From Candidatus Altarchaeum sp. (GTDB taxonomy: Archaea > Altiarchaeota > Altiarchaeia > Altiarchaeales > Altiarchaeaceae): a stretch of DNA of 14,377 nt. Shown in pieces: positions 11,230 through 13,908 of the stretch (position 1 is its first letter; every line of letters starts with the position of its first letter). The position numbers were made by a program, and so were the translations under genes. The stretch covers positions 14,711-29,087 of the forward strand of contig JAGTWP010000012.1 of assembly GCA_018260755.1 (NCBI GenBank), in the 5' to 3' direction. The notes beneath the pieces were generated by a model. It was not told the origin of the DNA, ran no database searches, and worked only from the letters and a program-made list of their open reading frames with translations.

Positions 11230-12195
11230 ATGGATAAATTTTTGGAAATTTCGGATGAAAAAATTTCGGACTTATTTAAGAAATCCGCCAAAAATTTAAA
11301 TTTTTCCTTTTTGAACGAGGATCTAATAGAATTGTGTGTGTATGATATGACCGACGGAACAAGAACATCAACAAATTTAAAGGGCAGTGACGCATACATT
11401 GACGGCGGTTTATTTGCATTACGATTTACGAATGTGTTTAGGGCATTGGGAGCAAAAAATATATATCTGAATGTTATTCACACAGGCCATAAGAAAAGAG
11501 TAAATTATAAAGATATTTATGAGGCGATGCTCAAACTTGTTAATGTTTATCTGAATTATGCGAACAAATACGATGCAAAATTAAAATTTCTGGGAAATTT
11601 AGACGAGAGGATTGATTCGGGAGATAGTAAATTAAACCTTGCGGAAATTTTAAAGGGGCTTGAAAATAAAACTGAAAACAATAAAGGCCTTACAATACAT
11701 ATTTTGATAAATTTTTCAACAAGGTGGCTTGCAAAGCACGAAGAAATTTATGACAATCTTCCGGAAGTTAACGTTGTTGTTAGGCATACTAAGGGCTACA
11801 TAAACGGAGATATGCAGATTTTTGGCAGAATGGATAATTACTCGCTTGTATATGCACAAAACGGTTCATCATCAACAAACTGGAGCGACAGACAAATCGC
11901 TGAGCTTGCTGCAATATGTCTTAAAAGTTACATCCTGAACAGAGGAACTCATCTTACAAAGACATATACAGACGGAGAAAACGAATATGTGAGGGGGAAA
12001 AGAGAAATAGAACTTTCATTAATTCATAAGGACTTTTATGATGAAAAGGAAAACAAAGGGGAAAATAAAGATAAAGAAAACAAAGAAAATAATGAAAACA
12101 AAGAAAATAATGAAAACAAAGAAAATAATGAAAACAAATTTAAAAAGAGAGCGATAATATTTTCATCTGTCGGGCCGGAAATTTATGAATTTTAG
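11230..12195 (+). CDS. Divergent cis-prenyltransferase (undecaprenyl-diphosphate-synthase-like)
   Basis: This 321-aa protein has sequence landmarks in the order of the UPP synthase family. TDGTR (41-45) carries the aspartate equivalent to the pyrophosphate-binding Asp. A GG-LFALR helix follows, then LGAKNIYLNVI (74-83), HTGHKKR in the place of the STENW-type loop, KFLGNL (119-124), and PEVNVVVRH (178-186) for the PELDLLIRTGGE region. It is clearly divergent, so a noncatalytic or altered-specificity role is possible. The family normally makes polyprenyl diphosphate carriers for surface glycans. Residues 271-303 are a Lys/Glu/Asn low-complexity insert with KENNEN repeated three times. The stop is TAG, followed two codons later by TAA. 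A good Shine-Dalgarno (AAGGAG) lies 9 nt upstream. Its 3' part is duplicated at 13940. Confidence 0.6.
   Translation: MDKFLEISDEKISDLFKKSAKNLNFSFLNEDLIELCVYDMTDGTRTSTNLKGSDAYIDGGLFALRFTNVFRALGAKNIYLNVIHTGHKKRVNYKDIYEAMLKLVNVYLNYANKYDAKLKFLGNLDERIDSGDSKLNLAEILKGLENKTENNKGLTIHILINFSTRWLAKHEEIYDNLPEVNVVVRHTKGYINGDMQIFGRMDNYSLVYAQNGSSSTNWSDRQIAELAAICLKSYILNRGTHLTKTYTDGENEYVRGKREIELSLIHKDFYDEKENKGENKDKENKENNENKENNENKENNENKFKKRAIIFSSVGPEIYEF
11701..12128 (+). repeat. Left copy of a 428-bp or longer direct duplication
   Basis: From the codon for Ile158 of the cis-prenyltransferase-like gene to 12128, the sequence matches 13940-14367 with a constant offset of 2239 and no mismatch seen by eye. Divergence at the right end occurs inside the 18-bp microsatellite, so the true duplication may extend further, past the gene end. 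Confidence 0.93.
12082..12135. repeat. 3 x 18-bp in-frame microsatellite
   Basis: The unit AAAGAAAATAATGAAAAC starts at 12082, 12100 and 12118 and encodes KENNEN three times. The right-hand copy of the gene differs in this tract (two clean units, then an altered third). Confidence 0.9.
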
Positions 12196-12233: not shown

Positions 12234-12515
12234 ATGGAAAATACAAAAATATCAGATAAAAAAATAAAAGAACAATATAATCTGATAAAAGAATATCATG
12301 AAAAGTATTTGAAAAAATACGGCGTTAAAATGCCCAAGTTATACGGCAGAAACGGTAATTTTACAATGAACGCCTTAGTACTTGTTTATTTATCTCTCAG
12401 ATACCCTAAAACAAGAATAATCTCAAAAACAGAATTAACGATTTTTATAAGAAATTTTTACCCAGAAGTTAACGATGTCCAACAGGCAAGACACTTGGGA
12501 GCTCAAGATGGCTAG
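12234..12515 (+). pseudogene. HNH restriction endonuclease, N-terminal part (ended by in-frame TAG)
   Basis: This 93-codon frame is the start of a protein that continues in the same frame after one TAG (12513-12515). It is a helical, basic region (ISDKKIKEQYNLIKEYHEKY) leading to a DNA-binding-like segment and the DVQQARHLGAQDG motif that immediately precedes the stop. The sequence after the stop (WIVVGGRDN) reads on naturally, so the pair is one endonuclease gene of about 248 codons. A TGG-to-TAG change at the interrupted codon is the simplest origin. On its own this fragment lacks the HNH domain and should not cleave DNA. It begins 38 bp after the cis-prenyltransferase-like gene. The alternative is UAG read-through. 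Confidence 0.75.
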
Positions 12516-12524
12516 TGGATTGTA

Positions 12525-12980
12525 GTGGGGGGCAGAGATAACATAGTAGCGAAAATTGATAAAGGTTCTTATCAACTTTATACCTTAGAACAACCATATC
12601 CCGATTTTAAGAAAGGACATAGAATTGTAGATACTGGCGATTGGGAAAAATTAAAAGAGCAATATGGTTTTAGGTGCGCGACCTGTGGCTCTCGTGAAGG
12701 AGAACCTAATTTTCATTGGCGGGGAACAAAAACAATACTTCAAAAAGCACATAAAGACCCAAATAAACCTCTTGTAGCAGGCAATATAATTCCCCAATGT
12801 CAAAAATGCAATAGGGCGGATAGGAACAGATGGGTTTATGACGAGAAAGGAAGGGTAATAAAATTAGCAGATGCTTCTTTTGTTAGAAATTTTGATAAAG
12901 ATGTGATAGTAAAAATTTACAGAATACTTTATAAAGAATTTAAAGGAAAAAATCCCAAGGATATAAAAAATGAAAAATAA
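12525..12980 (+). pseudogene. HNH restriction endonuclease, catalytic C-terminal part
   Basis: This part continues the previous frame; 12525 is only the first GTG after the TAG. The HNH nuclease core is visible. Two zinc knuckles, CATC and CQKC, bracket LQKAHKDPNKP and AGNIIPQ, giving the H...N...N order of the ββα-metal fold, with NRADRNRW after it. The two CxxC pairs would bind a structural zinc. Such proteins pair with DNA methyltransferases in type II restriction-modification systems, and the next gene is one. The last 11 nt overlap the methyltransferase start, implying coupled translation. An independent product from the GTG would lack the N-terminal region and has no obvious ribosome site, so activity is doubtful unless UAG is suppressed. 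Confidence 0.78.
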
Positions 12981-13908
12981 TGACTTTATTAATAAGATAA
13001 TTACAGGAGATGCATTAGAAGTGTTAGCAAAAATTGAAGATGATTCAATAGATGTTGTTCTAACAGACCCGCCTTATTTTTTAGATAAACTTGATAACAA
13101 TTGGAAATATACAGAAGTTCCTGACAAAAAATATTGTGTGGTGGTGAAGTCATTACCTGCCGGAATGAAATTTGACAGACAACAAGGTATAAATCTTTAT
13201 AATTGGTTTTTAAATGTATCTAAGGAATTATACCGTGTCTTAAAAAATGGTGGTTTTTTCTTCTCTTTCTCCAGTCCGAGATTGTATCATAGAATGGCAA
13301 GCGCAGTTGATGATGCTGGCTTTATGATTAGAGATTGTTTTGTATGGATTTACACTCAAAACCAGCCAAAAGCAATGAGTTTAAATCATTTTATAGACAA
13401 ATTAAATATCAACAAATCAGCAAAAGAAAAATTAAAGAAAAAACTTTCTAGCTGGAAGACGCCACAAATTAAGTCGTGTTTTGAGCCGATTATTGTAGCT
13501 CAAAAGCCACCGGATAAAACATTCTTGGAAAATATAATAAACAACGAGGTTGGACTTTTTAATACAGATATAAAAGTTGGGGACAATATGTATCCTTCAA
13601 ACATTCTGACAATTGATCATATCAGCGAAATTATGGATAAAACTTTTTTAGTGGGAAAACCGACAAAAAAAGAAAAAAAGGACTATAATTTTCATATGAC
13701 TGTAAAACCATTAGCAATATGTGAACATCTTATTAAACTTTCTGCTTTTTCAAAAGATGCAGTAATATTAGACCCGTTCGTTGGTAGTGGAACTACTGCT
13801 GTGGCAGCAAAAAATGCATGTAAAAACTTTATCGGAATTGATAGTAATCCGGAATATACAAAAATTGCTTTGGAACGATTAGATAATTTACAGCACAAAT
13901 TATTTTAA
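12970..13908 (+). CDS. Type II DNA methyltransferase (beta class, N6-adenine or N4-cytosine)
   Basis: This 312-aa SAM-dependent amino-methyltransferase protects host DNA against the adjacent HNH endonuclease. The catalytic motif IV is DPPY (33-36, TDPPYFLDKLDNNW). A variable region follows (about 130-240, target recognition), then motif X/I: HMTVKP (242-247) and LDPFVGSGTT (267-276). Catalytic motif before SAM motif is the beta-class order. DPPY favours N6-adenine, but N4-cytosine cannot be excluded. Motifs and length look intact, so it could still modify DNA even if the endonuclease is dead. The ATG at 12970 overlaps the endonuclease stop by 11 nt. The 31 bp after its stop lead directly into the duplicated host-gene fragment. 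Confidence 0.93.
   Translation: MKNNDFINKIITGDALEVLAKIEDDSIDVVLTDPPYFLDKLDNNWKYTEVPDKKYCVVVKSLPAGMKFDRQQGINLYNWFLNVSKELYRVLKNGGFFFSFSSPRLYHRMASAVDDAGFMIRDCFVWIYTQNQPKAMSLNHFIDKLNINKSAKEKLKKKLSSWKTPQIKSCFEPIIVAQKPPDKTFLENIINNEVGLFNTDIKVGDNMYPSNILTIDHISEIMDKTFLVGKPTKKEKKDYNFHMTVKPLAICEHLIKLSAFSKDAVILDPFVGSGTTAVAAKNACKNFIGIDSNPEYTKIALERLDNLQHKLF

Follow-up and report, generated by a model that had tools for sequence, protein, structure and literature searches.

The locus pairs an interrupted nuclease gene with an intact methyltransferase gene

The stretch of DNA analysed here (14,377 nucleotides, referred to as the window) comes from an uncultured Altarchaeum-like archaeon and carries a putative restriction endonuclease gene (R) with one in-frame stop, located between an uppS-like gene and a DNA methyltransferase gene (M) (Table 1). 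The first-pass annotation of the sequence had described a single in-frame UAG without a frameshift, and this was confirmed, as exactly one internal stop (TAG) and no frameshifts were present between positions 12234 and 12980. When translated across the TAG, R aligned over its full length with intact single-ORF homologues, to which it was mostly 60–82% identical, showing that both halves belong to a single gene rather than being two ORFs that adjoin by chance. The C-terminal open frame retained all residues found to be invariant in the alignment. The genome containing the window (G000) is a draft of 78 contigs that is 85% complete and probably metagenome-assembled, and the contig ends 1.9 kb downstream of the stop, inside a repeat.

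M was matched by the profiles N6_N4_Mtase (E = 4.7e-32) and PADLOC MTase_II (E = 3e-46), is a DPPY methyltransferase related to MboIIA, CcrM, DpnA and RsrI, and contains both the catalytic and the SAM-binding motif (DPPY and DPFVGSGTT); a methyltransferase with both motifs adjoining a nuclease gene is the arrangement expected of a Type II restriction-modification (R-M) system. Comparison of M with its counterpart in a genus-mate genome (G003) gave a dN/dS of 0.07–0.10, and the order R followed by M was retained in most loci of the R family. The methyltransferase had been proposed to be spared by the lesion in R, and it is indeed intact beside the broken gene.

Table 1. Features of the interrupted R-M locus and its surroundings (positions in the window).
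Feature	Position	Strand	Basis or remark
Intact uppS-like gene, directly upstream of R	11230..12195	+	ends TAG where relatives have TAA
Direct repeat copy 1, approximately 440 bp, in the 3' half of the uppS-like gene	11700..12140	+	
R, putative restriction endonuclease gene with one in-frame stop	12234..12980	+	248 codons; homologue comparison
R N-terminal fragment, 93 aa: helices of the predicted winged-helix domain without the wing strands	12234..12515	+	ORF; structure model
Premature TAG replacing an invariant Trp codon (residue 94)	12513..12515	+	52 of the 54 sequences spanning this codon have TGG
R C-terminal open frame, 151 aa from GTG: HNH-like catalytic region, preceded by most of the predicted wing strands	12525..12980	+	ORF; alignment; model
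M, intact beta-class (DPPY) N6_N4 DNA methyltransferase	12970..13908	+	profile matches; 11-base overlap with the end of R
Direct repeat copy 2, directly after M, up to the contig end	13939..14377	+	

R is a putative HNH nuclease with a predicted winged helix

Searches with R against Pfam, NCBIfam and PDB sequences returned no match reaching the cut-off. An alignment of 41 sequences revealed the invariant pattern C148-x2-C151, H173, N184 and C189-x2-C192-N193, one R homologue showed a sub-threshold match to Pfam HNH, and PADLOC gave a weak match to PtuB (E = 0.0014). Together with the adjoining Type II methyltransferase, the Cys/His/Asn pattern and the weak profile matches suggest that R may belong to the HNH nuclease superfamily. 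The initial label "HNH endonuclease" is less well supported than the first-pass annotation implied. The locus resembles known Type II R-M systems with an HNH endonuclease and a beta-class methyltransferase in its adjacent R and M genes, the HNH-like pattern in R and the kinship of M, and differs from them in that R lacks a family match at cut-off and that two members of the R family are paired with a C5-type instead of a DPPY-type methyltransferase (L029:2049-4324 and L031:24-1821, assigned by eye; in L029 a Vsr-like ORF comes after the pair).

An AlphaFold model of R built on the 41-sequence alignment (mean pLDDT 75) was confident over most of residues 9–121, which were predicted to form a winged-helix-like arrangement of helices followed by two strands, and was of low confidence in the HNH-like catalytic part. 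The modelled helices span residues 8–29, 45–53, 65–73 and 84–92, and Trp94 would open the first wing strand (residues 94–99) directly after the last of them; the TAG is thus predicted to split the winged helix, separating its helices from the wing strands and the HNH-like region. No significant match was obtained with the model in Foldseek, and VIA-align returned weak winged-helix matches (Fur/PerR, Z approximately 6; NaeI, SdaI and DpnI, Z approximately 4–5). Because these structural matches are weak, we do not assign R to a family on the basis of its fold. Relatives of R are spread patchily over CPR bacteria, deltaproteobacteria and archaea; none were found in viral contigs and phages, and the search of plasmids yielded only two partial matches from Thermus. 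Our literature search found no paper linking Altarchaeum with restriction.

The premature stop replaces an invariant tryptophan codon

When 84,980 prokaryote species were scanned, 59 loci proved to encode a relative of the C-terminal half of R. Among the 54 sequences covering codon 94, the window included, 52 had TGG and two had TAG, the second TAG being that of a Nitrospirae locus (L059), which is heavily decayed, with a frameshift and two additional stops. Trp94 was invariant in the 41-sequence alignment, in which the window's own residue had been entered as Trp, and the genus-mate copies of R (one in G001 and both in G003) likewise encode Trp here. The stop in the window therefore occupies a codon that is conserved as a sense codon in intact orthologues. 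It had been suggested that a conserved Trp at this codon would point to a nonsense mutation, and the presence of TGG in all 52 homologues open at the site agrees with this.

Homologues that are naturally two proteins split at codon 94 would have spoken against a mutation, and this idea was refuted by the same 52 open copies; no homologue was split there and otherwise intact. These data also bear on whether R could be expressed as two polypeptides, with translation reinitiating at the GTG at 12525 to give a 151-aa HNH fragment that works alone or with the N-terminal fragment. The GTG lies only three codons past the stop and the fragment would keep every catalytic residue, but the break would cut through the predicted winged helix and no obvious ribosome-binding site is located close upstream of the GTG, making this arrangement extremely unlikely.

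TAG behaves as an ordinary stop codon in this genome

The alternative that UAG is decoded as an amino acid, raised in the first-pass annotation, found no support. No match to PylS was obtained at the family cut-off in the window's genome and three genus-mates (genomes 65–87% complete), the best matches scoring 37–39 bits against a cut-off of 178 (PylS C-terminal model), and PylD was likewise below cut-off in all four genomes. The best PylS match in the window's genome was rejected as PylS, since its sequence looks SepRS-like. None of the 39 tRNAs found in this 85% complete genome had a CUA anticodon, a count in which the standard model could miss an unusual tRNA-Pyl; one tRNA missed by ARAGORN (L097) was read by eye and had the anticodon CAT and an intron. 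When stop usage was counted in sampled stretches of the genome, TAG ended 7 of 67 ORFs of at least 150 aa, with extensions of 0–1 codons in five of them and of 18 and 47 codons in the other two. The uppS-like gene is itself terminated by TAG, and the same codon is TAA in two genus-mates (G002 and G003) and in its own second copy (contig C27). The simplest reading of these sequences is that the standard genetic code applies and that TAG would act as a normal stop in this genome. On another contig, a remnant of a second methyltransferase (approximately 90 aa with motif I) was located behind a transposase-like ORF (G000:C34:791-997, L120); its in-frame TAG was rejected as evidence of recoding, as the rest of the gene is missing.

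Readthrough of the UAG by a suppressor tRNA, pyrrolysine insertion or leaky termination, yielding full-length nuclease and perhaps deliberately at a low level, would be in keeping with the full conservation of the downstream half of R, whose dN/dS (0.09–0.13) indicates normal purifying selection, and in a genome of this completeness the responsible tRNA could have been missed. However, the results for PylS, PylD and the tRNAs, the use of TAG to end other genes and the plain Trp in relatives all argue against it, and we consider readthrough very improbable. That the UAG is retained on purpose, so that a low rate of readthrough throttles an archaeal nuclease translationally while M is made in full, appears hardly credible.

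R was probably inactivated by a recent nonsense mutation

Apart from the TAG, R showed no sign of decay: the window's copy agreed with the conserved residue at all 86 columns in which conservation among the remaining 40 sequences was 95% or higher, and the dN/dS of R was 0.11–0.14 in pairs with the window and 0.085–0.17 in pairs of intact copies. With no other lesions and a dN/dS as in intact copies, the TAG is either a mutation of very recent origin or an artefact. A lack of further decay is expected of a very young mutation, but would be seen equally with a base-call error or with a gene expressed by readthrough. An artefact of sequencing, consensus building or strain mixing, in which case R would be intact and TAG would not be the true base of the population, would concern one base of a gene that is perfectly conserved everywhere else, and the fragmentation of the assembly, the contig of which breaks within a repeat so close by, adds to this concern. 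By contrast, at least 10 further members of the family carry lesions of independent origin (see below), which suggests that real inactivation is common, and we regard an artefact as unlikely, though less so than any of the alternatives above.

We therefore favour, with a probability of about 0.82, a recent single-base nonsense mutation that inactivated R and spared M. The locus would have been a two-gene Type II-like R-M cassette in which codon 94 of R recently turned into a nonsense codon, a change that we infer to be real in the population. Translation of R would end past the presumed DNA-contacting helix; the product would lack both the HNH-like catalytic region and the wing strands that precede it, so that no active nuclease would be expected. 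M, translated from its own start at 12970, would be unaffected and should go on methylating the genome, and the cell would survive the loss of the nuclease. Such an event, in which mutation switches off a defence enzyme, would be of an ordinary kind and probably recent. The locus, from an uncultured archaeon, would thus show cleanly how the conversion of an R-M pair into a lone methylase can begin, and it cautions against taking amber codons of this type for pyrrolysine.

Broken nuclease genes beside intact methyltransferase genes recur in the family

A broken or N-terminally truncated R together with an intact M was found at 10 of the 59 loci (L018, L021, L035, L037, L042, L052, L054, L055, L056 and L057), an intact R with a broken M at one (L046), and both genes were broken at two (L034 and L047). 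As the loci were found via R, total losses of R go uncounted in these numbers, and assembly errors will make the tally of broken R genes too high. The excess of broken R over broken M (10 versus 1) is as predicted from the biology of these systems: a cell may be killed by losing only the methylase, but it tolerates losing the nuclease (PMC4176335). Most nonsense codons in the family replaced either Trp (by TAG or TGA) or Gln (by TAA), the pattern that single transitions would produce. Loss of the nuclease with retention of the methylase had been called a common fate of R-M systems; this holds within the R family, which adds a counted series of 10 such loci for one nuclease family, but a large survey argues that solitary methylases rarely derive from recent in situ degradation of complete systems (PMC4176335). 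The window shares with solitary (orphan) methyltransferases that arose after endonuclease loss an interrupted R and an intact, conserved M, and differs from them in that its R is almost whole and carries a single lesion, which would place it at a very early stage.

The exceptional locus with a broken M (L046:2734-4495) has an early in-frame TAG in M (residue 16) beside its intact R, possibly a sequencing error. At two other loci (L034:2716-6331 and L058:815-3586), the broken R was seen by eye to contain or adjoin a further methyltransferase gene or set of R-M-like genes, an arrangement that looks like the insertion of one R-M cassette into a second.

The cassette is flanked by a duplicated part of the uppS-like gene

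The two copies of the direct repeat that covers part of the uppS-like gene were practically identical, and the tail of the second copy is likely located at the start of another contig of the same genome (G000:C27:1-129, L106). In G002, an uppS-like gene is present without R-M genes after it, representing an empty site, while G003 has the order uppS-R-M and no second uppS copy within approximately 1 kb past M; the duplication may therefore be younger than the insertion of the R-M genes. With long direct repeats of host DNA on either side, the cassette recalls the insertion of R-M genes with long target duplication described by Nobusato et al. (2000), as cited in PMC3031569; the single copy at the G003 locus is a point of difference.

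DNA identity between the window and the G003 locus (G003:C17, L108) was approximately 90% in the uppS-like gene, in R residues 1–33, in most of R residues 184–248 and in M, but only 61–74% in R residues 34–183 (window 12334-12783, which includes the TAG). The nearest relatives of the two R middles differ, those of the G003 copy being bacterial (L022 and L011, 86–87%), which indicates that intragenic recombination has shuffled R into a mosaic. Within the uppS-like gene, tandem 9/18-bp repeats (GAAAACAAAGAAAATAAT) at window positions 12061-12140 encode a Lys/Glu/Asn-rich stretch that varies in length among relatives, and it is within the second copy of this stretch that the window's contig breaks.
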